From Diadema setosum (Eukaryota; Echinodermata; Echinoidea; Diadematoida; Diadematidae), in assembly GCF_964275005.1 (NCBI RefSeq), contig NC_092689.1:1991501-2055500 (forward strand): a stretch of 64,000 nucleotides of DNA. Direction: 5' to 3'. How positions within the stretch are numbered: the first letter of the stretch is position 1; every line of letters starts with the position of its first letter. The position numbers and the translations under genes were made by a program. Below are positions 6,226 through 59,112 of the stretch, in pieces. The notes beneath the pieces are model-generated. The model was not told the DNA's origin. It searched no databases and worked only from the letters and a program-made list of their open reading frames with translations.

Positions 6226-6400
6226 AGGGCATCCCGGTGGTCTAGTGGTTATGGCGCTGGTCTAGTAATGCGGAGGTCGTGGGTTCGAATCCCGCTTGGG
6301 CTGCCTGTGATTTTTTTTTTTTTTTTTTCACAGCAGCCCACAAACTGCACACTGCAGTTGCATGTGTTACTACGGATGGAGACAAATGAATAATCTATTA
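6226..6400 (+). mobile_element. tRNA-derived SINE (tRNA-Thr(AGT)-like head)
   Basis: The first 76 bases (6229-6304) look like a tRNA: A-box-like TGGTCTAGTGGTTATGG, a CTAGTAA loop identical to the anticodon loop of tRNA-Thr(AGT), and B box GGGTTCGAATCC closed by a good five-pair stem (GTGGG/CCCGC). The acceptor and anticodon stems contain mismatches, so it is not a working tRNA. It is followed by a T tract and a tail with GGATGGAGACAAATGAATAA, which recurs in complement near 24190-24210. Confidence 0.65.
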
Positions 6401-16800: not shown

Positions 16801-19800
16801 AAAGTGGTCTCGCGTGAAGCAGACGATGTTGTTCCCGTTGATGTCGAGTTTAATAAGACGAGCTACGGTCGATTTATAGACGTGGCAGGACACGGGGAAA
16901 AATCGGAACGGCGTCGTACGCGGTAAAAAGTTTTGAAGTACTCAAAATTTTATTCCGCGGACAACCACGGGCGGCACACGTGGTAAAGACGTGCAACACA
17001 CGTGAAACACACGTGATGATCAGTGTTCCGGCAGTGATTAAAACTTGGAGAGACGCGGTAAGACACGAAAGTTTAGCCGTCTGTAACGGGCAGAGCACGG
17101 TCATCTGACGCGTGTTACGCGTTGGTATCACGGAAAATAGCGTGTGTTTAGCGGCTTATCACTGACAAATGGATTTTTCTGCGTGCACACACGTGGCTGG
17201 ACGTGGTTAGCCGTGCTTAGGCAGTACTTAAGCAGTGGAACAGCCGCCAACGGCCATACCCCGTACAAAGCACGGCCAAACCAAAATTGACCAAAAAATT
17301 ACCACTTTATACGACCACGTCCACCAGATTTTCAGAACTTTTTGTACGTGATTTAGACGTGGAGTGCTGTGTGACCGGGGCTTTATGTTGAGGATATTGT
17401 GCGTTTTTTTTTCTACTTAAAGAAAACAGAACAGTATATATTATTCATATTATGCAGATATAAATGTATATAATGCGGTCCATAAGGCGCATATGCGTCG
17501 GAAAACGAGATATCTTAACAATGGCGGATCCAGAGGGGTGCACCGGGCGCGCACCCCCTCTTTATATTTGGTTAAAGCAAACGAAATCAAAAGAAAAAAT
17601 GGGGGGGGGGGGTGTGAGCTGGCGCCCCCTTTAATTTTGCAAAAAGTCGCCTCCCATTTACGAAATTCCTGGATCCGCCCCTGCTTAAGGTAATTCGCTC
17701 TAAAGGGGAAATTTGTTGATTCCCCTCAATGCCTTATCAGTGATCTGGGGCCTAAAGACTACTCCACAGTAGGACACAGAGGGCGTAGTGTTGAGGACTG
17801 TACTATCAGATACAATGGGCCGGATGCATAAACGCTAGCAATTGCTTGTGCTAGCCTTTTACTCGAATCAGTATGCATAAAAACAAGCAATTGCTTGCGA
17901 GCAGAAGCTCTTGCCAGCAAGTACAAGCAATTGCTTGCTGTCCGCAAGCAATTGCTTAGAGACCAAGCATTTGCTTAAAAACGTATGCATAAAACATACC
18001 TTTTGCTAGTTCTTGCTAGCAATTGCTTACGATTTTCCAAGCTCTGTAAAATGAGCTTGAGCTTTTGCTTATCTGGGACGTTCCCTTGTAAGTATCATTT
18101 TCATATTCATGGAAGAAAGACAACAATAATTGTGAAGGAGTGGTATAAATCTACAAGAAATTACTCTTAAGTAGAGTAAGAAATTTTTCATTTCAACAAC
18201 GGGAATGTCCAGTGGTTAGCACGCAAAATTTGATGAAAAACGGGTAGGATGTCTCACTTCGGTGGAGAGCAAGGAGACGTCTCTCCACGTGCGATCTGGC
18301 AGATGCGGGCTATTGTAAGTAGTGGTGGTAAATCAGCCAGTAATACGAGTGTGTGTATAGTTGTGTGTGTGTGTGCGTCTGTGTGTGCATTTATGAGTGT
18401 CATTTCATAGCTCTTCTGCTATGTCAGGAAATGTTTCTGCACACAAATGCCCTTTCAAATGCATACCGCCACACTCGCCTTTGTTCTTGTGTTCGCACAG
18501 GCGTGACGTCCCTTTTATTGAAAACGCAACCATTTATTGCTTGTGCGGGACAAGCAAAAGGTATAAGCACTAGCAAAAGGTTATGCATATGGATTTAAGC
18601 AATTGCTTGAGCTAGACCTTTTGCTAGACAAGCTTGTGCTTTTGCTTGAAGCAATTGCTTGTTTTATGCATTCGGCCCAATAAGGGGAGCTTGTCAGTGA
18701 TGCAAATAATTGAACAAATAAATAAATAAATAACAAATAAGAAATGGATGTATATATTGGATGTGCATAAAAAATGGGTCATGGGGCAATATATATCTGC
18801 CTTTTCTCCAAAAAAGATTGTATTTGCTCATTTACATACATAATTTAGTGGTTTAAGATGCATTTTGTTTTCTTATCAACTCAATGCTTTATTGAGCCCA
18901 TATCAACGCATAAATTCTCAAAAGAAGACAATATTTTCATTTTTACTGATTATCATTATGCTTTTTGTCAAAACTTCCCCAATATATCATTTATTCCGTA
19001 TTTAACCTTATGGCTAGTCCAGATACTGGACGATTTTAATCGTCCGCATTCCCCATACTAACACACGCATACACATGCATGCACCCACACAATGGGCCGG
19101 ATGCATAAACGCTAGCAATTGCTTGTGCTAGCCTTTTACTCGAATCAGTATGCATAAAAACAAGCAATTGCTTGCGAGGAGAAGCTCTTGCTAGCAAGTA
19201 CAAGCAATTGCTTGCTGTCCGCAAGCAATTGCTTAGAGACCAAGCATTTGCTTAAAAACGTATGCATAAAACATACCTTTTGCTAGTTCTTGCTAGCAAT
19301 TGCTTACGATTTTCCAAGCTCTGTAAAATGAGCTTGAGCTTTTGCTTATCTGGGACGTTCCCTTTTAAGTATCATTTTCATATTCATGGAAGAAAGACAA
19401 CAATTGTGTGAAGGAGTGGTATAAATCTACCAGAAATTTTTCATTTCAACAACGGGAATGTCCAGTGGTTAGCACGCAAAATTTGATGAAAAACAGGTAG
19501 GATGTCTCACTTCGGTGGAGAGCAAGGAGACGTCTCTCCACGTGCGATCTGGCAGATGCGGGCTATTGTAAGCAGGGATGGTGGGAATCAGCCAGTAATA
19601 CGAGTGTGTGTATAGTTGTGTGTGTGTGTGCGTCTGTGTGTGCATTTATGTGCGTCATTTCATAGCTCTTCTGCTATGTCAGGAAATGTTTCCGCACACA
19701 CATGCCCTTTCAAAATGCATGCTGCCACACTCGCCTTTGTTCTTGGGTTCGCACAGGCGTGACGCTATTGTTCGAACCCTAAGCAATAGACCGGTTTACT

Positions 19801-22800
19801 AATGTATGCACAGACCTTTAATTTTGCACACGGCCGCAACCTCGGGCAAACAAAGGACACGAGCCTCCAACGTCGGCTGCTGCAGCCGTCCGCGACACGT
19901 CCCCACGTGTAGACTTACGTGTATGTTGTGTACATGTGTGCGATGCATCAACTTCGACTTTACCTCCTGGCATTTCGTGTGGCTCTAAATCAATTCCCAA
20001 CCTCAGATGAGGGAGAATTCTGCTGTGATCAAACGCAATTTGGACTATAGTTTCGATTTTGTTAAATTTTGGTTTCGATTTTGTCTTCAGTAGTTTCTGA
20101 AAATGGGTGGAAAACACTGCTGCTACGGAACGTGCAACAGTGATTCGAGGTATGTGGGGAAGAGGCCTGAGATCTCGGAGTATTTTTCATCCCTTTTCCG
20201 AAACCAAAAACAAATTTGGAGAAGTGCAAGATATGGATCAAGCAGTGTGGTCGAAAGGATTTTGGAATTGAGCGAATTACCAAGGATACATACATTTGTT
20301 CAAAACATTTTGTTGGAGGAAAGGGCCCATCAGCCGAACATCCCCATCCTATCCCAGCGGCAGCCACGGAGCTTGAGCGACGGATTGCATCGAAACCTGT
20401 GCGGCCTCCTCCCCGTAAGCGGTCATTGGAAGAGCTACCGCAGTCATCTTGTCCAAAGAGAAATCGGTCAGCTGAAGAACCAGGAGAAATTCAAGATGCT
20501 CCCGTGGATGTTCCTATCTACAACTTTGTGGATCGTGGTAAGTAGTAATACTAGATATTGTAGACAGGTATAGGCCTACCATTATCAACTGCCACCAGCA
20601 GCCCAGTCCCGAACTCGTACTACGTAGCGTAATGGGGCTGCAGACTGTAGCATACAGGATCATGACAGGGGTAGTATCGCGGATAAATATCAACTTATAA
20701 TCGAAAAATTTCTTCAATTTGTATACTTACAGGTAAAGTTTAAGTGTTGACAACAGGTAGCGTGCAACGTTTGGTTCTGCCAATAGTCACTTTCTGTTCG
20801 AATTGATGACTTAATGTGACTCGGTCGAGAGGAACCTGGGAGAGCTACACTGAATTGACGGCTAGCGCATGCGCACACATCATGATGTCTGTGTGCGCAT
20901 GCGCTGGCCGTCAATTCAGTGTAGCTCTCCCAGGTTCTTCTCGGCCGAGTCACATTAAATCATCAATTCGAACAGAAAGGGACTATTGGCAGAACCAAAC
21001 GTTGCACGCTACCTGTTGTCAACACTTAAACTTTACCTGTAAGTATACAAATTAAATAAATTTTTCGATTATAAGTTGATATTTATCCGCGATACTACCC
21101 CTGTCATGATCCTGGATGCTACAGTCCGCAGCCCTATTACGCTACGTAGTACGCGTTTGGGGCTGCTGATCGCAGTTTTAATAGCCTACCATCAGCAAGA
21201 AACTACAATCAAAGAGCAGATGTTTTCCTGTCAGCCTGTAGTTCCGGGCTGTAGTTCTACATAATCTTTTGTATTATTTATCTTCCTAAGGTACTTTGAA
21301 TTTGGGTTTTTACAACAAAGTGGCCAACTGTTTTGACATATGAAGGGGAGGGGAGAAATTGTTTCCACGTTCATTGTCAGTCATTATAGTTTCGTATCCA
21401 TTTCATTTTATTACTACAGGATGCCAGACTCACTATTCACAACCACCTCGTCGACTACCATATTCAGAAGAATCACCACAATGCGCCACTAAAGATGCAG
21501 CTACACAAACAGCAATTTCCCATATCGACTTAAAATGCTACTCTACAGATGAGCTTCAAGACTCTACATTACTGTTGCGGAAAAAATTTGTTGACCGTGT
21601 AAAATCATCGGACAAGTCCTGTATCTTCTACACAGGTAAATAAAGGCTCTAACTTTCATTACGTATATGGATATATCTTGATTGATTCTTCTGTACATGT
21701 CAGATGTTCATTTTGTCATATAATTTTGAATAATCATGAGGAATTACTGTATAATCAATATATGTTACAGACATCCAAAACTGATTTGTTTGCATTCATT
21801 TTTGTTTAAGTTTAACCCCCTCCCTCATCAGAAAGTACTTCCCCAGTCATCAATTTTTATCATGTCAAGTTCCAAATCATGAAGTTTGCAATAACTATTT
21901 ATGTATGTTCTTTTGATTATTTTGCAGGTTTGAAGGTGATCATGCTGGTCTTCCTCTTTGATTTCCTACAGAAGAAGGCATCACAAATGCGATATTGGAA
22001 GGGAGCAGGTACCCCAAAACCCTTTCCAGCTGGAGCTGAGGTACATATTTACATTAAGAAGTCCTTATTTCCTTTTTAAAAGCCTTAATCCCAGAAATCT
22101 ATAATAGATAAAAGATTGCACAATTATGTTTTTCTGAAATATAAACTTCCCAAGTTAGAAGTGATTTCCATAGAAATTATTCCACACGCACAAAATACAA
22201 TATGAAATTTGTCATAGAAGAGAAAAGGTGTTGATAGAAGAAAATTGATTTGTGATATATCAAAGATAAATTTATTTGTCCTTGCCTTACCCCCTTTTTT
22301 TCTTTTATCCTAATATAACAAGATTTCTAACTCCTAAGATGGATCTCAGTACAATTGTATTAATTTTGCATATTTTCTAACATGTGTATCAATTATTGAT
22401 TTAATTCTTTTACTGTTGGTGTTTCAGGACAATCGTTCCCGTGTGCTAACCTTATTTGAAGAGTTCCTCTTGACACTGGTACGACTGCGACGTGGATGGA
22501 CAACCCTGAGTTTGGCAGATACCTTTGGCATTTCAAAGAGTCTTGCCAGCAATCTCTTCACCACCTGGATAAATTTCCTAGACCTTGAACTCAAACCTCT
22601 TCTCATCAGATGGCCAAGTCGGGAACAGGTGTTGAAACACTTGCCCAAAAGCTTCAAGCATTTCAAGAATACGCGTGCAATCATTGATTGCACAGAGATA
22701 TTTGTTTCAAAGCCATCGTTACCAAGTTCGCAACGAATTACTTGGTCCAATTACAAACATCACAATACTCTTAAGCTTCTTGTTGCAACATCTCCTCGGG

Positions 22801-24574
22801 GTACCTTCATATTCCTCTCAAAACTCTGGACTGGAAGTGTGTCAGACAAGAAGATAACAGCAGAATCAGGATTCCTGGATAAAATTGAATATGGAGACGA
22901 TATTATGGCTGATAGAGGATTTTTAATCCGAGACTTACTGGCAGAGAAGGGGGCTACTCTGAACATGCCACCCTTTGCTCAAGGAAAGCAGCTTTCAAGC
23001 CGGGCTACTACTAAGACACGCAGGATAGCATCTGCACGTATTCATGTGGAGAGAGCGATTGGACGCCTTAAAACATTCAGACTGTTAAATGGCACTGTCC
23101 CTCTAGATCTGAAGCCATTATTAAACCAAATTGTTGGTGTCTGCGCTGCTCTTTGCAATCTCCAAAAACCACTGAATGCCTGAAAGTTGAACTATTCTGG
23201 AAGAGAAACTGGTAGGTGGAGATAGGATGAGAGACGCAGAGGAGGGGGAGGGGGTCATGAAAGTCAAGTCTTGTATTATCAAAGTACCTAACTATATGTA
23301 CTGACCATCCAAAGGAAATATGAAGAGTGACTGATATTATCAGACGGTTGTTATATCAGCCATTCCGTGTAAATGTCACATGAGTCGCATCAATGAATAA
23401 AGAAGTATTGATTAAAGAACAGCTTTGTTATTAATTTTACATCAAGATATTATATTAAACAAATTATTGTTCTGTAATCAATATTTGTTTAGGTATTACA
23501 ATATTTCTGGCGCGACACTTACGTGGAATGGCAGCTGATATGTATATGCAAATTGCCACCAAGACAGATTTTAATATCCTTTTTGTGTTTGTAAAGCAAC
23601 AAAATATATATTTAATCACGTGGTTAACAATACTGTGCATTTAAGTACGTTGTTCTTTATCTTTTATCCCATCTATCACTTTTATTCTTTCCCTTCTGTT
23701 GTGTTTACTGGTATACATACATGTACCTAACTATGCCATGGTTGTAGAACCAATGAGGAGGTTGTTGTGTAAAGACGAACCTTTTGTACGGGGACCAGAA
23801 CAACAGGAGGCTTATGACCAAATCAAGAGTACAATTCCACAGAGAGTTGTTCTTGGGTTATTCAATCCAAACTTACCTACCATAGTCACAACAGATGCAT
23901 CCGATCATGGGCAAGGAGTAGTAGACCTACTTACCCAGGTCAAAGGGGGCAGGAAGTTCTAATAGCTTTTGCCTCAAGGTCGTTGACATCTGCTGAAAGA
24001 AAGTACTCCACAGGTGAAAAAGAAGCGTTGGCTTGTGTTTGGGCATGTAACAAGTGGTACACCTACCTTTGGGGTAGACATTTCGTGCCGAGGACTGATC
24101 ATAAGGCTTTGGTTACCATGTTGAGTACTAGAGGCTAAAAGGTAAAGCAACCTATGAACTAGATGATCATACAATTTGGAATGCATTTCATTTGTCTCCA
24201 TGTGGCGTAGAGAAGACAAGAGAGACGGATAGAGCTGTCTCAGGAAAAGAGGAAAGAGATGGGGTACAGCATTGTGTACAAAGAAGTTTGAGAAGTAGGG
24301 GGGAGCCCAGCTACTTACATGACTATGTGAGGTATTGGAAAAAAAAAATCAGTCATATATTCATTTTGTTAGGCAATCAGGAAACAGGAAACTGATTATA
24401 TGTGTAGAATATTGAACTCCCTTGATTTCCAGCATATATTATAATTTATGTTGTTAACCGAGAGAGAAAACATCACATGTTGTATCACACGTGTAAAAGA
24501 ATGAGTCTCAATTTATAATGTTATGTCTGGAAAGGAAAATATGGAAGGTTTTCACCCTATTCGGCTTTACATAT

Positions 24575-24611
<37 letters not shown>

Positions 24612-27600
24612 TATCTCGCCCTACATGTTTACAAAAAAGAAAAAAGAAAAGAAAAAACAACTCACCCTTTTCATGATGTAAGTAATGAACAGATACAGAG
24701 TAACAGTTTAAGGCAGAAATTTTATGTGATGATGTTGAAAGGATTGTGTAAACACTGATCAATTTGGAAATTAGTTTGGAGTATATTGTGATGGATCAGT
24801 GCCATGAAGGTAATTTCAATGAGAGGGAGAATGTTGTGTTTACAGATATACATCGCATATTCATAAAGTGTCTTAGACACCCAGACATTCATTATGTAAC
24901 CTCATTATTAAATCTTCATGTATTAGTATGTATGTGCCTCAGGTGTCAGCATGCATTCCAACACTCCACTTATTGAAACTGTTCTTATATACATTAGTGC
25001 ATGTCTGAAGACGGACAGTTCTGCAATAAACACCAAGATGTTAACTGCCACGCCTTTTCTGTTCCTTATTTTACAGTCATAAGTTTTGTTACTTGTGACC
25101 CACGATACAACACCTTTCTTTACTCAGTTCACATACACCTGTATTCTGGTTACCCCCCACCCCACTCTCTCCTTCCCCTCACTCTTTCCCTCACCCCTCT
25201 CCCCATCACTCTCTCTCTCCCCACCACACCTCTCCCCCACCCTCTCTCCCTCCCCACCACCTCTCTTTCCCTCCAACTATCTCCCCCACCCTCTCCCTAT
25301 TCACATTTCTACCTCCCCTCTCTCTCTGTCACTCTTTCGTTTCCCTCTCTCAATCTGCCGCTATCTTTCTTTTTTTCACATGCTAGCTATCTTTAAATAC
25401 TTTTTTGTTCAAACTTCAGCCTTACTCTTTGGTTTACACACCCCGAAATATTCAACTTCAAATATTTAGAACTGTCAGCTTATGCATTTAATAATCATGC
25501 ATGATAAAATGAACAAAGAAGTGTATAAATATTGAAATGCTTTATCTCAGAGAAATTTAGTCCTTAGATAATAAGTACATGCATAAGACCAAAGATAGAA
25601 TAATAATAATAATAATATTGAAAAATCTGCAGTTTCATCTGAAATACACATATAATGGGGCATTTTAACTTGGACGCAATATTTTCACTGTATGACATGC
25701 ATAGAGCTACATGCAAATATGAAATGCTTGGAGATTAAAAAAAAAAAAGTATGTACATATACATACATCCTTGTGGTCTTTGTTTTCCTTTGTATTTTAA
25801 GTTATTAAGCTTAAATCTTTCATTCAGGGCTCCAAAAACGTCATGAGCTGAAGGAGAAAGAAATTCTAATTTTCTAAACAAAATGTGACCAACGTGGTTG
25901 TGTAATCATTTGTTGTTTGATGCAGGAAATTTTCAAAAGGAAGATAATATTATCAAAAACCCTCAAAGTGGCAACATGGTAAAGAGTAAAAAATGACTAT
26001 TTTTTCAAAGAAAATTAGCACTTTTACTTTTTAACAAACTTGGCAATGGAGAATCAATTAAATAGCATTTATTTAAATAGAAATATTGTAGAAATGAAAT
26101 ACATTATACATGCAGTCGGTATGCATGTGTTTGTTGTCAATGAGAGCATGAAACGGTGAGTGAATTTGCGTTAAAATATTTCCTGTCATGAATGGGGCAA
26201 AATATGAAAGATAGAGAATATGCGCCCTTATCACTTACTGAAATCCTGCAAATTCAAATAAAGAAAAAAAATCAGGAATAGCTTGGGATGGTCAAATATA
26301 CGTCCTAACCATCCCTCTAAATTTGTAATGTTTCTGAGGTATGTATAATAATATGTATGCAATTACATAGTTTAGCATTGTTTTGGATAACTGGAAAAAC
26401 TGTGTATGATTACCAGTACTGAACTCAAATTATCTGCAAGTGTACATGTACAACAGTACTTTGAGTTTAACACAGATTGGAGTTTAACACAGTTTTGGTA
26501 GGATAGCGTTAATGAAAAACAGTTCCAACTTGATGACCATTTCCTTGAAATACTGTTCATCGAACTTGACTGGTACAACACAGATTCCCTTCTTTGTGTA
26601 GACAACAAGGTCACAATGACTGATACCACACACCCCCATCTGTCCCTGGATTTGCGCGAAGTACTTGCATGACGAGTCCATTGCCAGCTCCCCGTCTGGA
26701 CCAACAATACATCCACGTTTCCTGGCTGCATCCTTTGGATGTGAGTCTCTCTCGGTGAACGGGCATTTGACCTCCACAAGTCTCTTCTCAGGGCATGAGA
26801 CACATTTGCAGGTTGCCACTCCATCCGGTGACGCTCCAATGTAGGCTCTCTCTAGAAGCAGACACAGACCACTCTGCCTCAACTTATGCTGCCGATGTGA
26901 CTGTCTCCTCACGCGAGAATAGTGCTCCGCAGCCACCTTCTCCTTCTTGCGCCCCCACTCGATAGCAGCCGGTTCGAACTCGAGGGCACCTCCCTCAATG
27001 ATCCTGCTGGCAAGTGTACCACCATCCTGCTTCTTCGAAGAAAGTACTGAGTTGAAGTTGGAAGCAGTCAGCCGGCACTTGCGTAGGTCATGCCACATCT
27101 GATTTCCGGCCTGTCCTCTTGTATGATGCTCTACGTCTCCGACCTCCTCCTTGGTCATAATGATCCTCTCCGCCACTTCTGCTGGTGTCAGTGGACTCGC
27201 CGAATTACTAACAATGGTGGCTACCTGCTTATCCACCATTAGATGGTCATACGCGAAAGGTGCTGGTTGATTCTCTCGCAATGCAACGTCATAGAACTCC
27301 AACGCAGCTGCATCGGGGTCAGCCTGGAGAATAATAAAGCGGATAAGAAAAGTTTAATCATATAACTATATTGGGGTTAATTTTGCATCTTTAGAAGATT
27401 ACAAAATATCTACTCTCTAAATAACTTTCATTTATTCATTATTAATATTATCATTATAAGAATGATGGTGCAAGAAATTATTATTTTGCATGCCAAATAC
27501 AAATACAGTGGAAACTCTGCATAAAGAGATCTGATATAACAATATTCCTATACAGGTGAATAATCTGGTTCCAGCTCTTTATAATTCATTGTTTGCTAAC

Positions 27601-30600
27601 CCTGATATAAAGAGATTCCTGTTATAACAAGGTATTTTTGATGGTCCCAAGCACCTAGCTATACTGATTTTCCACTGTACATGCAACTACTCAACATTTG
27701 GTCAACATTGCAAAACACACTGCAAATATGGAGGCCATGCAATAAGGTATTTTAACTAATGACGTACATGGGGGATAATCTTGGGGAAGAGCTACTGATA
27801 GACCTACCTTGGCAAGACCAGATGCAAAATCAGCAGTCTCTGAATCGCTCGGAGGACGTCGATCATCAACTGTCCTTGGATCGAAGTCAACCTTCTTCAA
27901 AGCAAGGGCTGAAGCAGAACTTGAACTGGAATCGCCGTACCTGTGACAAAAGTACAAAACATATCCAATAAGAATATTAGGAATATATCATTATGAAGTC
28001 TCTGACACTACCTTTGGTGGTGGAGGCATATAATGCACATTTAAGTTGTACCAGCACATCAAATACTTTTATGCTTTTGGGGAGTATGAAAAAGATTGAA
28101 CTTTCAAATGAGGTAACCACTGGCATGGCTTCTATATTACCATGTTGGAAGTACACACAAGCTTAACATCAGCCATTTAAAACAAATTTCCTCCTCCCCC
28201 CCCCAAAAAAAAACAAAAAAAACAGAAAAAAACATAAAAAATATCGTTTCAACCTTTCAAAAAGGAAAAACAGTAATAAACAGTAACAGAAATCTTCATG
28301 TATAATAAATGCTTTGATCATAAAAGAATTTCCATCCGTAGACGGTCTATGTCTTTTTGAAATATTCATTTTATTTAAAGCATTTGTAAAATGGACAAGG
28401 AGAAACAAATGTGCAAAGACCCTACATACCTTGCTTTTTTGACAGTCAGGTGAGTGAGCACTGTTGGTACATCATGTTGCCTTGGCTTCCTCTTCCACTC
28501 GGCTGGTCCTTCAGTACATGACTTCACGTCAAACGCCTCAATCTCGTACAAGACAGCTCCCACGTGACGACAGGCTCCATCCGCCCTAATGTTATATATA
28601 TATATAAAAAAAGAATGGGCCTATGTAATGCATGACAAGATGAGGGATATTTTTTCTGTATTTCTTGAACTTTTTGAACACAGCATCACAGCAAAATACA
28701 GTATGACCGCCTCACTTCATACTTCAATGATTTGTATACAGTTCTGGTCGAGGTGAGGATTTAGCATTTAACGTTGTGCCAGATATTCACAAACCACTCT
28801 ATAATGTAGATGTCAAAGCTAAGCCAAAGGGGTATCAAAAATTTATTTCATGAAAATTGGTTTTGAAGTGGCTCAGATTTCCAAAAACAAGGTGAAACAA
28901 AGAGATCCTGTCACTTTTTATTATTATCACTTTTTTGGATATCTCAGCCACATGAAAACCAATTTTCATCAAATAAACATTGAATCCTTCTAAAAATTAC
29001 ATGCTCTTTCATATTTCATAAGAGGTTTCTCATCATCTCACTTAGGAATGTTCAAAACATGAATCACCGCCTCAACCAGTACTGTACAGTCCCTTTAAGC
29101 ATTAGTGGCATCTAGGCCTATATTGATTGATTGTAAAATCTAAACTTCTCTCAGAACTTTTTTTTTTTCCGGGGGGGGGGGGGGGGGTGTAGACAGCAAA
29201 TCTCTCATAATGGATATGTTTCACAGGATTTGTTAAAGTTAGACTCAAACTGATTAGGCTTCATGTAATATAGAATGACTATTTTCACCCATTTTTCTAT
29301 TAACAATAACACTATAGTTAGGGGCCTAGCCCTAGATACTAAGATAGACTAGAACCTCTAACCCTGTTAGCGTTAACAGTTAACTTTAGAGATCTAGAGT
29401 AGATATAGACGTAGGCCTAGAGTAGGCAGAGGTCTAACATTAGACCTAGGCCTAAAAACAAAAACAATGATAGACTTACCCTCCCTGACATTCGCAGTAG
29501 GCAACATTTATTTCCCCCGTTGACTTAGTCATCACCACCCAGCACTGGTAGGTTGGTTTGTTGAGGTATGTCCGGTCCTTTTGCGTCGGCCTAACCTCAC
29601 CAAGGAAAACACAAACAGGGCTCGTGTCCGAAACCTCATTGAACTTCAGGCTTGTAACATTCCCATCGGCGAAAAGACGATAGTCCTCAAATGACTTGTA
29701 TCCCTTTAGCTTTTTCCGGTCATAGTCAGTCCGATTGATAATCAGGTAGTTGAACACGTCAAAGAGTCCAAAATCTGGAATACTCTCGAAGTTGGATGTA
29801 AACCCAGCGAGCTTGGTAGGATCGGAGAACGAGCAGCCTACCCGAGCGAGCTTCTCCTGCAGTGACCGGCCGGTGTCCGCCCGGGAGAGGTCGGGATCGA
29901 TGGGCAAATCCAAATCGGCTACGGCAGTTGCAAGTGTGACGAGTTTCTCCTTGTTGTAGCCGCTTGTGCTCACACCTCTATCCCTCAAATACTCAGTTAG
30001 TCCCTTAACTGTCCAATCCTTCCATGGCTTGCTCGAACTTTGGCTGGAACTTGAAGTTGACGCCATCACAAAGCAAGATTACAGGAAATAAAAGTTGTCG
30101 ACTATCCACAGCGAGTAACGATGGTAGACAATCAATACACGCGTGAATGCAAAAACAATATGGCGTCCACGCTTTCGCTTGCCCGACATAGTAACAATCA
30201 CTAGGGTCGCGTGGGGTGTGACGTCATTATGCATATCATTAGTAAACCGGTCTATTGCTTGCTGAATGCAAGCAAAAGGTATGTGCACAAGCAAAAGATT
30301 ATGCATATGTATTTAAGCAATTGCTTGAGCTACACCTTTTACTAGACGAGCTTGTGCTTTTGCTTGAAGCAATTGCTTACAAGCAATTGCTTGTTTTATG
30401 CATTCGGCCCAATGCGCCCAACCGCTGATTGCGACACTCCACCAATTGGTACTCCCGAAAAAAAATCACTGAGGGGTTATTGTGTAATACAGTGTACATA
30501 CAGACACCATCAACGTACGTCCGTACGTACGCGGGTACACTGCATACGAATACAGTCCAGGAAGTGGACTACCTTATGGCTGGAAAAAGCGTCATATGTA

Positions 30601-42107: not shown

Positions 42108-45100
42108 CACTAGACTGAGTACAAATCTAGTGTACGTTAACATTTGTCATATGCTCACTCCCCGTTCAGGCGTCAGACGCAGATGAGGATGACGAGCTGG
42201 AGTATGATCTGTACGGCTACAACTCTGAGTACGCGTATATGCAATGGGCAATGATGGGCACTTATCTGTTATTGATCTGTATCTCTCTCCCTCCCTCCCT
42301 TTATATACATAATGATTAAAGTGGGGGCATACTTCCGGGTTTCATGAGCTAACAAGCAAAAAACAAAAGCAAAAAAAAAAAAGAAGAAAAAAAAAAAAAA
42401 GAAAACTAGATCTGTCGTCTTTGGGACATGATACATAATGGTATAAGTTTGAAATTGATAGGCAGAGGACTTTCTGAGCTAACCTCTACACAACTTTTGA
42501 GGAGAAATAAGAAGAAGAAGAAGATGATGATGAAGAAAGAATCCGTACAAAAACAGAAGGTGATCCGAGAGGATACTCGGATCACCTAAAAAAAAGGTCT
42601 TCAGCCCCAAAACATAATCTTACCGCCCTCCCACTTCAAGATCTTTATTTCTTTCTAGTGCCACTTACCCACTTCCGGGTTAAAAAAATGGGGGGGGGGG
42701 GGGAGGGGGCAAAGTGCTGACACCTTATGTATTCCTTTGCATGGTGCACAAAAAAGTGGCCCCGGCCGCCCCCCCCCCCCCTTACCCCGGCCATGTATTC
42801 ATTTATTTATAGTATTATTTATGTATTCATATTTATGCTGTGAATGTTGAGAAGGGTGCCAAATCACTTCAAATTAATGAGTTCTTGCGTTAAGGTTTTT
42901 TTTTTTTTTTTTGTTTATTGCAACTGATGGACCAATTGCCCTTCACCGACGTAAATGATATTAGTAGCTGTGATTGAAAAAAAAAATCATGAGCATACAT
43001 ACTTGGGTTGGGTTCGAACCAATAATCTCCCAATTGCTGGACAGGCGTCGGACGTTTCTTCTGGACTACCAAGCTTTCCCTCGACATGTCGAGCGGAAGC
43101 TCGAAGCTCTTTTTTCTGAATTAGTGAATAGATTTGAATCCGACGTATTCTATGAAAGGAAAATAAAGAAATGAATAATTATAATAGTTATCTTTCTTAT
43201 TTTTTGTGTGTTTGGCTGACGACAATTTATTACCAATGAGTGATCACAGAAGTTGAAACTATACGGTCATAAAGACCTATAATGTGCTATACTTTGGCAC
43301 AAGAGAGTTAATGGCAAAAGTTTATTATTTCTTACTACAGCCTGTACAAATGATCAAAAACGCATCTGCTATTTTACATTAAAATCCATACGATTCCACT
43401 ACTTCTAACTTCTAGTTATTTTGCAGTTGTGCATGCGTGGTTTGATCAAAATCCCAATCATACAAATAAAAGATGATAATAATAATGATAAAAATTATAA
43501 CAATAATGAGCAATAATTTTGCAGAATTTCTCTACGATCAAATCGGTCTCACTGATGCAATCTGGATCAAATCGGTAGTCATTTTTCCACATATTCACAG
43601 AGTAGTATTTCTTTTCTCCCTTTATAGGTGGTTTAGCATTAATAGAACGAGCGGAGAAATTACCGTGTCGGAAAGTGAAGAGTTCGACGCCGAGCGGCTT
43701 AGCGTGTATTTCCTCACCTGTCAGGTCAGCGACGGCGATCGCGTCGCCACCTCCCTGCTGAACGTCACCTTGGTTGACGAGAACGATGAGGAACCGGAAT
43801 TTTTCGGAGAACCATACGAGGTTTCGATTCCTGAGTACAACATCGAAAACGTGACGTCACAAGAACCTGTACTGCAGCTTGAGGTGAAGGGACTGTTTCT
43901 ATACGATCTTTTGGTTTTGTCTGTTTTGTTTTGTGTGAAAACCTCTCTGAAGTGTCTTCGTTAGTTGTGTGTAGTAACCTTAATTGACATTTGATTATGT
44001 CTATCAATTTCTGATTTATGAATATACTGGCTAAAGTAGGTAGTGTGAATTATGTATAAGTGCATACTTTCGCTAGGTAATACAGCTACCCCCAAGGGCG
44101 TACCGAGGGGGGGGGGGGGGGGGTGTTTTGAGTGTTCAAACACCCCCCCCCCTTTGCCAGAATGGGGGTGTTTGAGGTGTTCAAACACCTCCCTTGGGCA
44201 AAAGGGAGGTGTTTGAGCTGTTCAACACCCCTCTTCAGCAATGTTTAGATGATGACAAATGAAACAAAAGCTGTCTTTACCGCTTTTATTTCCGTTTTGA
44301 ATTCCGCCTTTCCTTTCTCTTGCGTTCATTTTCTCTCTCTCTCTCTCTCTCTCTCTCTTCCTTGTTTTATCTTAATGTTTGTGTGGATGATGATACATTA
44401 CGGAGTTACATAACATTATACGCATAATACATAATATTACTACTACGTTACTGCACCGCGCGCGAAGCTGACGCGCAAACAGTAGACATTCTCGATCCCT
44501 GCTTTGCTTTCTGGCCGAATCGCGAAGATACATTGCGCATAATGTTCACCGTTTACCGGTATTATACCATATGCGGTACCGTAAATTGTGTATGATTATT
44601 ATTATTATTATGTGTGTACAATGCATGCTGCGCTGCAGCATATTATAGGCACATTGCATGCTAAGTTAGTAGTATCAACTACCAACAGTGGCGTATCTAG
44701 GGGGGGGGGCAAGCGGGGCACGTGAAAAAAAAAAACGAGAAAAAAAAAAAGAAGAAAAAAAAACCGACGAAGAAAAAGAAGAAGAAGAAGAAGAAGAAAC
44801 CCCTCGCCCGGACGGGGGGAGGAGAATGGGAGGGGGGGGGGGGGGGGCAGAAAACCAGAAAGGCAGCATCCTTGATGATTGTGAGTCATTGATCACTAAT
44901 GTCTTGCTTTAATAAGACTGCTACTGTCAGTATCAGTCTGGCAGAAAAAAGCACAACTCCAGTATCTACGAAAGAAGGCCTCTGTAAGGTAGCGATAGGA
45001 TCGATGTTATCTCTCAAGGGAACAAAAGTAACTTCATGTTCGCAAGGTGGTGGAAAACCCAGATCCTCTGTGAAAAGATCCATATCCTAATTCTTGGGCA

Positions 45101-50700: not shown

Positions 50701-53700
50701 GAAAGATACATGGCATGAAAGATTTGATGTAAGTTCTAAGGTTAGATCTGACTGACTCGCCCATATCAATGTGTTACAGGCCACTGACGGGGATATCACG
50801 GAACAAGTACTGACCTACAGTATTTTATCAGGAAACGAAGCCGGGAAATTTGTCATCGATCCAGTAAACGGTACTATATCAAGAAATCAGAGCATCGATA
50901 GAGAAAATATGGAGAATATGGAAGATGGAGTGTACAGTCTTCTTGTCATGGTTGTAGACAACGGTGACCCGCCTTTAAGTGACACAGCTACAGTTGAAAT
51001 AACTATACAGGTACGTGACAAGAAAACTTCAAACAAAACAAAAAATGTTGACATTGATGCAGCCCAATACCTGGTAGAATAATGTTTCTTCGAATAAAAA
51101 ATAAGACGAGAAAAATCAAACTAATGAAAATGCTAACAATAATATGTACCACATTGTTCGATTTCAATCATATTTTTCATTATTATTGTTGTCATTATTA
51201 GTAGAACAAGATAATTGTTTTCATAATATTGTTAATGTTATAATCACTACGAAGGTTTTTGGTCGTATACTAACTAAATAAAATATTAGATAAAAAAGTA
51301 TGTCCTTTCCGAAATAGTATACTTACCCATCATCTTCGTACCAGCTAATTCCAGTTAAACAATATTTTGATAACATTAAGTACATCCGAACTTCTTTCAG
51401 GATGTAAACGACAACGCCCCGTCATTTCAATCTGCCGTCTACGAGGCTTATGTGGACGAGAACTCTCCTTCTAGAGGTAAGTGATTGTCGTGCGTTTGCT
51501 TGTAAAAGCCTAAGTGGTCACACATCCCCATAAATAAATATTATATGAAATAACAGTAAAATAAGTATTTTAAATATGACACCCCCTACCCCCCCCCCCC
51601 AAAAAAAAAAAAAAATAGATAAGGAGGGGGGGGGGGACTCCGGAAAAAGACAAGTGCAAGAAAAAAAAAAACAAGCATGCAAAAACCACTTGTTTCGGGA
51701 ACAAGAATAATTCGAGATGTCTTCCAGGGATGATTGTACACGCAGAAAGCTAATGATTAGGGTACGGTAATGAAAAAAAAAAACCAAACAATTATTCTAG
51801 GTTGCTTGAATAGTTCTGTAAGTAATCAAACACTTGATACATTTTTTTTTCTTTCTAAATTCTTTCAGGATGTTCAGCACATTAAAAATTATGATTATGA
51901 TTGATATGCGGCAATGACAATGTTCAATATTAACTCCTACAAATGTAAAAGAGTCTTCCATCAATGACAGTGGTGTTCGCTTAAAAGTAAGACTCAATAG
52001 CGGAGTAATGATAAAAGTCTGTAATAAAAGAATAACTACCGTCTTTACCTGTGTGGTGCCCGTTATACAGAGTACGTAGCAAACGTTACTGCAACCGACC
52101 GGGACGTGAAAAGTACTGGAGTAGTCTACCGCATAGAGGGCGCTAGTTTGTTCGTCATCGATTCGGATGGCATCATCACCGTGAGCGGTTCGCTCGACCG
52201 CGAAGCCGAGGATTTTTACGATCTAACGGTAGCCGCCACTGACCGGGACGATCCATTCCAAGAGGCCACCTGTCACGTGTTGATTACTGTTCGGGATGTG
52301 AATGATGAGGCACCAGTCTTTGTGGAATCTTCTGCATCCATTGAAGTTTACGAGGGTACGTCACCTCACTTCATTTTTTTTTTTCATTTCTGTACTACGC
52401 ACGCTTTATTGACATGCGGAGTGTAGTGGTTAGTGGGCAGTCAATGATAATGTACGTACTGGAAAATATCACTCCGCGTTGAGATTGACTTCGAGTCAAT
52501 GGTAACAGCTATTTTCAAACAAAGAGACAACAAATCCTAATTAAATACGCGAAAATAGATTAGGCAATGATACAAAACCACACCACTTCACCATTATTTC
52601 GTCTGCAAAACAACTCGGCAACTGCAAGCTCGTCGTTTAAACATTGTCACCATTGCCGAATCGCTTCAACTCGTTGTCACCTATTATGTTTTGTTGAATT
52701 CATGTCAAAAAGAAATTGTACATGCGAACATTAATCACGTCACTCTAATTGGCATGTTTGTGACTGTGACCGGTGTTATCATTTTTGTCAGATTTTATGA
52801 TACTTTCACTACCCGTACCAGGGGCGGATCCAGGAATTCTGTAAAGGGGTAGGGATGGGGGGGGGGGGGGGCAACTAATATTTCTGGTGCTCCTTCCGGG
52901 TTTCATTTCATTTTTTTTAAACGAAAAATAAAGGGGGAGGGGAGTGCGCCCCCCTCGACACTGCGTACTTGAGATGAAATAATTCAATACCCACTAACAT
53001 CAACCCGAAGATTACGCGGAGTTTCATACCGTTACATGCAGACGATTATGATTGCTGATGGAAAGTGAGCGTTTCCGTTTATCGAAGATACATGTACGCC
53101 ATACTACTAATGATGCTATCATCTTTGATATCGATATAATCATATAGTATACGGGGAAAAATCCTAGCTTTCGCCATATTGTGCGGTTTGAACTGTGATG
53201 CTTCATGAAATGCTAGTAACAATATGAAATCTAGTTTATCAAATATTAGTACTAGTAATTAGATAAGAATCAGCTCACTTTAATAACCGAGTTTCTATCC
53301 AGTTTCCATTAGATATCAGGGCTAGTAAGAATGATATTGTTGGATCATTATTAAGAGACACTTGATATCAATGAAAAGTGAAATCAACCCTTTACGAAAA
53401 ACTTTTTTTTTTTTCTGATTGTACCCATAGATACTACTTCCTGCGACTCTGGAGTATGCATGGTTCTTGCCTGGCTGAATGCGACTGATCCCGACGAAGA
53501 CAGTACTCTAGTCTATTCTATCACTTCAGTGGGTGCCTTTGACGAAAACAACGTGGAATTGTCTGGGGATTTCTCATCTCAGTTCGGAGTGAAAAACACG
53601 ACTGGTGAAATATTTCTTCAGGAGCCATTGGACAGGGAAACAGTTCAAAGATTCGATATATCTCTTCAAGTAGAGGATACGAATGCTGAAATGTCAGACA

Positions 53701-56700: not shown

Positions 56701-59112
56701 TAAATGTATACAAGATTGACAATTCTGGTAACAACTAACATAGAAAGACTCGCTGATATTAGGTATACTGTACGCAATGTACGTATGACAAAATAAACCT
56801 GTGAACCTGGGGCGAGAGAGCAGGCAAGAACCATGCAAATGGTATTGTTTAAACATATTTGCAAAGAATGGTATTCTTTACTAGTCTTCTAAAAGTATGC
56901 TTTGATTGGCACCGTCGCACTTCAGGAGAAAGAAAATTCCAGATGTCAGGACCGGCATGTCGTATGGATCGATGGGCAAGGGCAGTTTTTGGATTTTCTA
57001 GGTGCACATTTGTAGAGGTTCTGGTTGATGAATAGCCGAATTAAAACAAAACATGTTTAACAGGTTGGTGGGGAGTTCTTGGGAATGGAATCTATACATA
57101 AGACGGCACTTTGGAGGTAATGAATGTCGTAAATGGAGAGTGTACGCAATTGAAAAAAAACAAACAAACAATGGGTTTGTATGAGACCTGTAATCCGAGT
57201 AATCCGGTGTACCATCAAAATGATCCCTAGGATGTCATATATAGTTGCGTCCTGAAAGACGCATGAGAAGATCGATCTGTAATAACGTCTCAGCAACGTC
57301 ACTCAAGAAACCTACCCGAGTTCATTCAGTAGAACTTATAGTGTGCCTCTGATATGCCGATCGAAACCCTAACTGACTTATACAAAGAACAATTTGCTTA
57401 AGGTCATTTATATAAGGACTGAAAAAACGAAGTCAGTTTTGTTGTCAGAGAAAAGTACCTAAGTTGTTTTATGTTCATACAGTAGAATAACTTCAAGTTG
57501 TCAAGCACATTCTGGAGTTCATGCTGTTCACATGTTACCTTTAGAAGATCAAGCACACTGTCAAAAACTTCAATCCAATTCATTTCAAATGAAATTCTAT
57601 TTCCAATAAAACATGTTTGTTGTCGATACAGATTCAACGAAAAAAAAAACGTAAAATGTATTACAACAAAAAATGCATGTGTTATGAAACTAATTGTTCA
57701 TTTCCATGAAAATATTTTACCTGTACAGACTTTCATTCGTACTGCCGTCAAATAAATCTTCAATCGTACGCTTCATGTAAGAGGCACATTGTATCGTTTG
57801 TCAGCTTAGTTTTAACAGATTGGTAAACAATTTCAGCAACTTGAATTCCTTTTTCGTCCAGGCATTCTCAAAGTGGCACAACCTATTGACAGAGAAAAAC
57901 ATTCTTCTCTGACAATTACAATTCGAGCCAGAGATGAAGGGAATCCCCCACAGATCAACGACACGGTCCGTGTCATATACATCGAAGATGTGAATGACCA
58001 CTCACCGGAGTTCAACGAGTCGATACCCACTGAAGTAGACGTTTACGAAGATGCCGAAGTCGACAGCACTGTCCTGGTTGTACAGGCCATCGATGAAGAC
58101 CCCGTCTATGGGAACGTGACATACAAGATCTCAACGGGAGATGCGGAAGGGATATTCCGCATTGGAATTCAAAGCGTGAGTGTTGATTTTGTCCATCTCG
58201 AGTTGTCTTTTCTTCCAGTTCTGTAACTTATGAATAGTGTACATTGTGTAATAAAGCAGTCATCCATGATCAAGTTGAATTTAAGAGACAAATTCTTGAA
58301 TAATATATATTTATCCGAGAGAGAACGTTAGCTTGTTAATATAGAAATGAATGGTTTGCCTTTAAACAAAACAAATGTAAATTCAAAAATTAAGGAAACT
58401 AATTCTTCTTCTCATTGCGTGTAGACCTGAGCTGTGGTGGTAAATATAATATCATTGGTTTGCGTTTAGAATAAAACAGACTTCTTTCGAGCAAATGCCC
58501 CCTACCACATAACACTGTATGATTACAGTGACGTACAACTGTGTACCATGTATATAGTTTCACAACAGCAGCAGCAGCAGCAGCAGCAACAACAACAACA
58601 ACAACAGCAACAACAGAAACACATAATTACATGTATATAACTCTGTTATCTTAATGGTATTAGGACAGGCAGAGAAATCGCCAGAATCGTTTAATCATCT
58701 TTTTTTTTGGGGGTCTCTATGATAAAATCAAAATCACAATGTACATCAAAAACTTTATGTAGTATACGTCTGAGCGTTCAGCGACACAGATCAAGCACTG
58801 GACACTAAGCAAGCTTGAATACTGTACTTCAGAAGAATATAAGAATATATCATAATATATCAAAATTAATATTGGGATATCACCCCTACTCCTGAAATGA
58901 TTGTGACGTTTCTATTCGTGATAATTCAAAATGATACACTGACATAATATCAGACGCGTGTTATCAGCGATTTATAGTCAAACCTGTCTTAGCGACCGTC
59001 TGTCTATAGTGGCCACCTGTATATGACTGCCACATTTTCGTCGCCCTTGGCTGGCCGCTTTAGACAGGTTTGACTGTGTAAAGAAAAGGAGAAGAAGAAG
59101 AAGAAGAAGAAG

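Follow-up and report, generated by a model that had tools for sequence, protein, structure and literature searches.

A two-gene transposon in the genome of Diadema setosum, very probably of the ISL2EU group, inserted at a palindromic AATT target within an older repeat

We analysed a stretch of 64,000 nucleotides from Diadema setosum (contig NC_092689.1, positions 1,991,501 to 2,055,500; hereafter the window), in which a DNA transposon with two convergent genes lies inside a second mobile repeat. The gene on the forward strand encodes a transposase with THAP, helix-turn-helix (HTH) and DDE domains, and the gene on the reverse strand encodes a protein with a YqaJ nuclease domain. Both ends of the element are present, which bears out the original prediction of a two-gene, ISL2EU-like element captured inside another transposon. 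The prediction had also called the element complete; this holds for its ends, but its THAP exon carries a frame break and its 10.5 kb include later insertions. The coordinates of all features are collected in Table 1.

The transposase was modelled as a THAP exon followed by three more exons, joined at GT-AG sites. All three domains scored above the Pfam cut-off (DDE_Tnp_4, E 2.5e-48; HTH_Tnp_4, E 7.1e-12; THAP, E 6.5e-7). Residues D117, D192 and E238, numbered in the stop-to-stop frame at 22338-23183, were invariant in 11 aligned sequences, and we take them to be the catalytic triad of the DDE transposase. The closest protein relative was a Strongylocentrotus purpuratus protein, with 84% identity over 88%, and no solved structure matched the transposase profile at E 0.01. 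The THAP domain is spread over two reading frames, with the switch between 20163 and 20179. We read this switch as a frame break rather than an intron because 17 bases are too few for an ordinary intron. Because of this break, the window copy is probably inactive now, unless the break is an assembly error.

The YqaJ gene was modelled as four exons, which give 571 open codons with GT-AG junctions. The YqaJ domain (PF09588) scored 59-61 bits against a cut-off of 22 (E 1.7e-16), and the profile of the YqaJ core matched phage exonucleases in the PDB (3syy, E 1.3e-16; 1avq, E 1.5e-10). The three closest relatives of the whole protein, the best among the 7997 candidates that had most words in common with it and were scored, were 38-43% identical to it; Ostrea edulis and Ptychodera flava are named among them.

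A perfect 20-bp inverted repeat is present at 19785-19804 and 30237-30256, with GC outside both ends, as originally described. However, the ends of the element do not coincide with the ends of this repeat. The junctions read AAGCAAT/AGACCGG...CCGGTCT/ATTGCTT. Since AAGCAATTGCTT, the target, is palindromic in its own right, the symmetry runs 4 bases past the predicted end (AAGC...GCTT). The inner 17 bases of the inverted repeat occur at only two places in the window, with up to 4 mismatches allowed. AAGCAATTGCTT occurs 11 times in the window, each time inside one of the two outer-repeat copies; the flanks of the element, when joined with a single AT, form one further AAGCAATTGCTT.

The 913-Mb genome assembly was searched for further copies. 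A 1-kb left-end query gave 1437 first-look candidates, of which 40 were scored; all 40 matches started with the first A of AAT, which is base 1 of the query. Twenty element copies were fetched from among these 40 rows. In all 21 loci, the window included, the element is bordered by AAT at its left end and by ATT at its right end. The terminal inverted repeat (TIR) starts with AGACC in the window and with AG(A/G)CC in 19 of the 20 genomic left ends, with L030 starting with TG. Eighteen of the 20 fetched outer-repeat copies were used for the alignment of empty sites (L044 and L057 were left out), and 17 of these 18 carry the empty site AAGCAATTGCTTG. The exception, L041, has four extra bases and reads AAGCAATTTATTGCTTG. 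Across the genome, AACGCAAGCAATTGCTTGTGCGGG marks 171 exact sites, all clean empty sites. Uninterrupted copy 1 in the window, which had been offered as an internal empty-site control, does contain TTTATTGCTTGTGCGG, but its site is changed to CAACCATTTATTGCTTG, and it is a poor control. Together, the flanks and the empty sites establish that the element spans 19788-30253, with a 17-bp TIR and the target A/AT/T, where the slashes enclose the duplicated dinucleotide. The original note had named the behaviour of the junctions in other copies as a refuting condition; by this test, the junctions predicted at 19784/30257 both move 3 bp inward, and what was duplicated is the AT of AATT instead of GC.

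The earlier version of the ends, a 20-bp TIR starting with AATAGACC and a 2-bp GC target duplication, follows naturally from the window alone, where both flanks are GC and 20 bases form perfect inverted repeats. In the genomic copies, however, the dinucleotides outside AAT and ATT agree in only 2 of the 21 loci, the window among them, when about 1.3 are expected by chance, and the empty site that this version predicts, AAGCTTGC, was found in none of the 18 alignable outer copies. Against copy 1, the GC junction scored 260 and the corrected junction 273, a weak difference, since the corrected sequence has six more bases. We rejected this version on the flanks and empty sites and regard the chance that it is right as negligible. 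A Spy-like insertion is harder to separate from the corrected ends. Here, the element would include the T and A next to its ends (TAGACC...GGTCTA) and would have inserted bluntly between CAA and TTG without duplication, which predicts the same flanks and the same empty site. Spy is indeed described in part of PMC11304231 as the sister of ISL2EU, with insertions that fall between AAA and TTT and duplicate nothing. However, passages of PMC9179366 give most Spy elements a single open reading frame (ORF), whereas the window element has two genes, and THAP and YqaJ together with AT duplications make up the set described for ISL2EU in the relevant section of PMC4482050. Moreover, A precedes AAT in only 2 of the 21 loci, and T follows ATT in 2 of the 21. 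We consider a Spy-like insertion improbable.

Very probably, then, the window element belongs to ISL2EU, a group of the PHIS superfamily, and entered an AATT in the middle of the palindromic AAGCAATTGCTT, close to the right end of an older miniature inverted-repeat transposable element (MITE) with ANT flanks, with duplication of AT. As a family of ISL2EU, it is new and of an ordinary type. Several points weigh against this interpretation or limit it. The 20 fetched element copies come from among the best-scoring rows and are no random sample. An AT duplication and a zero-duplication insertion with TIRs starting with TA give the same flanks and the same empty site, so that the choice of AT follows the literature. 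The TIR starts with AG and not with GG; the part of PMC4482050 that describes ISL2EU says that its TIRs usually start with GG, and with that "usually" an AG start is compatible with membership. The outer-repeat flanks of the window copy are unusually divergent near the junction, and for this reason its own pre-insertion site is only inferred. Finally, the window element differs from the 20 copies by a mean of 4.3% across the left 354 bp, and by 7.5% across the right 401 bp, whereas the copies differ among themselves by 2.2% and 4.2%, respectively. The window element is therefore not the direct parent of these short copies; it looks like their sister.

The outer repeat is present in two copies in the window, as predicted: in the main BLAST alignment, copy 1 and the split copy 2 were identical at 776 of 849 positions (91%), and with the corrected junction, 41 mismatches remained in 832 aligned columns. 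Its left TIR is GGGCCGGATGCATAAA, and its right TIR, when read inward, is GGGCCGAATGCATAAA. In 15 genomic copies with both ends and the two window copies, the flanks were ANT in 15 of 17 cases on each side, and the two flanking 3-mers were identical in 10 of 17. Fourteen of these 15 genomic copies were 848-878 bp long; the remaining one, L041, reached 997 bp. By its ends and target only, the outer repeat resembles a Pangu-like, ANT-flanked MITE. The outer-repeat sequence at 19765-19787 and 30256-30275 is far more divergent from the paralogs than most of copy 2 is. Sixteen of the private columns of copy 2 fall at alignment positions 969-1014, and its other dense block, at 589-618, is a deletion. 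The divergence near the junction may stem from gene conversion, from repair that followed the insertion or from an old variant of a subfamily.

The order of insertion is the outer copy first, then the ISL2EU element, and then at least one insertion into the latter. A foldback in transposase intron 1 is a later insertion into the ISL2EU element because the paralog L011 lacks it and because a 9-bp repeat, GCCTACCAT, was seen by eye on both of its sides (20574-20582 and 21184-21192). A second foldback, with 46-nt arms that are 89% complementary, lies at 28842-28977 in YqaJ intron 1. In 18 of the 20 short genomic copies, the BLAST pieces jump from 28733 to 29120 or beyond, that is, past this second foldback.

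Table 1. Features of the ISL2EU element, its surroundings and related gene pairs (window positions unless a contig is given)
Feature	Position	Strand	Remarks
Outer MITE copy 1, uninterrupted	17817..18678	+	AAT at 17814-17816 and 18679-18681; variant ISL2EU target
Outer MITE copy 2, left part, TIR GGGCCGGATGCATAAA	19094..19787	+	AAT at 19091-19093; ends with left AT
Left AT target duplication (A/AT/T)	19786..19787		genomic copies and passages of PMC4482050
ISL2EU element, corrected ends	19788..30253	+	10466 bp; ends and empty site in genomic copies
Left TIR AGACCGGTTTACTAATG	19788..19804	+	17 bp
Transposase exon 1 (model), THAP domain	20103..20537	+	frame shifts between 20163 and 20179
Nested foldback insertion, transposase intron 1	20583..21183		absent from L011; two 276-nt arms
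Transposase exon 2 (model)	21420..21635	+	
Transposase exon 3 (model)	21928..22040	+	
Transposase exon 4 (model), HTH_Tnp_4 and DDE_Tnp_4	22428..23183	+	
Fragment of retrotransposon RNase H, between transposase and YqaJ genes	23645..24138	+	approximate extent
YqaJ exon 4 (model), YqaJ nuclease domain	26484..27323	-	GASPDG and VEVKCP motifs
YqaJ exon 3 (model)	27808..27940	-	
YqaJ exon 2 (model)	28430..28585	-	completes SWIM-like motif, Pfam E 0.0092, below cut-off
YqaJ exon 1 (model), N-terminal region	29480..30066	-	SAP-like by eye only
Right TIR, exact inverted copy of left	30237..30253	-	
Right AT target duplication	30254..30255		genomic copies
Outer MITE copy 2, right part	30254..30410	+	starts with right AT; AAT at 30411-30413
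Other transposase and YqaJ pairs	C1:23646640-23652359, C16:5629880-5633833, C58:61083-65643, C17:34479339-34494778, C3:28901865-28908594		

Among the matches found in the assembly, the window is the single locus that encodes the transposase and YqaJ core of this family. The transposase frame gave 15 matches (all 48 candidates scored), of which the 14 outside the window were 27-51% identical, and the YqaJ frame gave 10 matches (all 22 candidates scored), of which the nine outside the window were 26-37% identical. The left 24-mer, by comparison, had 101 exact matches. All 20 fetched copies were internally deleted, with lengths of 1056-1965 bp. Their left part ends at 20131-20142 in 19 of the 20, and in 18 of these 19 the next BLAST matches lie at 28698-28733, followed by a right part from 29120-29205. 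L030 showed the right part only in BLAST, and L011 has different breakpoints. The simplest reading of the shared breakpoints would be one ancestral deletion. In the left 354 bp, 16 of the 20 copies were on average 1.3-2.2% distant from the others. None of the 20 copies matched residues 1-195 of YqaJ exon 1 in a single open frame, and we claim no coding role for these derivatives.

At five other places, a transposase match and a YqaJ match lie within about 15.5 kb, and in four of the five the two face each other, as in the window. These pairs probably represent diverged ISL2EU families distinct from that of the window. The C1 transposase has an open frame of 551 codons. Ends were sought for the C1 pair only (L084), and no convincing terminal repeats were found in its 9.9 kb. 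Comparison of the exact TIR and the transposase alignment with viral contigs revealed no relatives. The exact TIR was found in two stretches of prokaryote contigs; a BLAST comparison at E 1e-3 showed nothing in them that resembles the window, and they were taken as chance matches.

The empty sites also raise the question of excision. In the loci L085-L094, A, T, TA, TT, TTT, AATT or AAATTTTGTT is inserted at the AAT/ATT site, all ten in outer-repeat-like sequence. These inserts and the changed site of copy 1 could be footprints of ISL2EU-type excision. In favour of this, the ten inserts, of 1-10 nt, sit precisely at the boundary of AAT and ATT, compared with the 171 clean sites, and the same-shape pattern placed a few bases rightward had no match. 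However, at no site today is the exact outer flank followed by the exact TIR, which would be odd if ten had been vacated. Furthermore, five of the ten inserts (A twice, T twice and TA once) can also be read as short tandem duplications, and small inserts occur at other positions of the outer repeat in unselected copies. In the library searched, no paper on ISL2EU was, by its title, evidently about such footprints. We regard the footprint reading as suggestive only and rather unlikely. It is part of a wider scenario, in which the window would hold the last coding copy of a family near extinction: a single transposase and YqaJ locus with a broken THAP exon would stand against at least 101 left ends, presumably nearly all of short derivatives, whose recent amplification would have been driven in trans and whose excisions would have left the small inserts at AATT. 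This scenario as a whole is doubtful. It includes the frame break, which could possibly, if not by preference, be an assembly or base-calling error in an intact transposase. No other break was seen in any modelled exon of either gene, and in L011 the corresponding stretch of the THAP exon is open in a single frame, but such a break is equally expected in a decayed single copy.

Outside the element, three cadherin-domain matches on the forward strand lie downstream, at 43470-43964 (below the Pfam cut-off), 52028-52426 and 57816-58226, and possibly belong to one host cadherin gene. A tRNA-Thr gene or tRNA-derived repeat at 6231-6305, far from the element, was the sole Rfam/ARAGORN match.

In the mechanism that we envisage for the ISL2EU element, the DDE transposase, guided by its THAP and HTH domains, would cut at the 17-bp TIRs and paste the element into AATT with a 2-bp stagger. 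The YqaJ protein would assist as a lambda-exonuclease-like nuclease, and the short derivatives may have been mobilised in trans by a coding relative of the window copy. The locus is of value as a two-gene ISL2EU element whose ends, target and empty site are fixed by many genomic copies. It also illustrates how a palindromic target can mimic longer TIRs and a false duplication, which would mislead classification based on target duplications. With one coding locus and many gene-less derivatives, it offers a good setting for the study of the role of YqaJ and of family death.

Of the known groups, ISL2EU as described by Han et al. 2015 (in the sections of PMC4482050 on this group) is closest to the window element. 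The description gives ISL2EU the target A/AT/T and, in most autonomous candidates, ORFs for a DDE, HTH and THAP transposase and for a YqaJ protein. The window element has AAT and ATT flanks with an empty AATT, a pattern that zero duplication would also give, a transposase with all three domains (its THAP exon frame-broken in this copy), a second gene with a YqaJ exonuclease domain, TIRs and an animal host. It differs in its length, which is 10.5 kb, introns and nested insertions included, where the stated average is near 4.8 kb, and in its AG instead of the usual GG termini. Spy, another PHIS group, shares a related DDE transposase and an A/T palindrome as insertion site, but its target is AAATTT, without duplication, and its elements mostly have a single ORF, according to the parts of PMC11304231 and PMC9179366 cited above. 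Pangu, also of PHIS, has the ANT target duplication (passages of PMC4482050) and resembles the outer repeat in its ANT flanks and in a TIR starting with GG; the flanking 3-mers of the outer repeat, however, are identical in 10 of 17 cases, and the two were compared on ends and target alone. The GASPDG and E-K-C-P motifs of the YqaJ protein align with those of the phage exonuclease 3syy. In contrast to the phage exonucleases, including lambda exonuclease (1avq), the YqaJ core here is part of a multi-exon gene of an animal transposon, with added N-terminal sequence.

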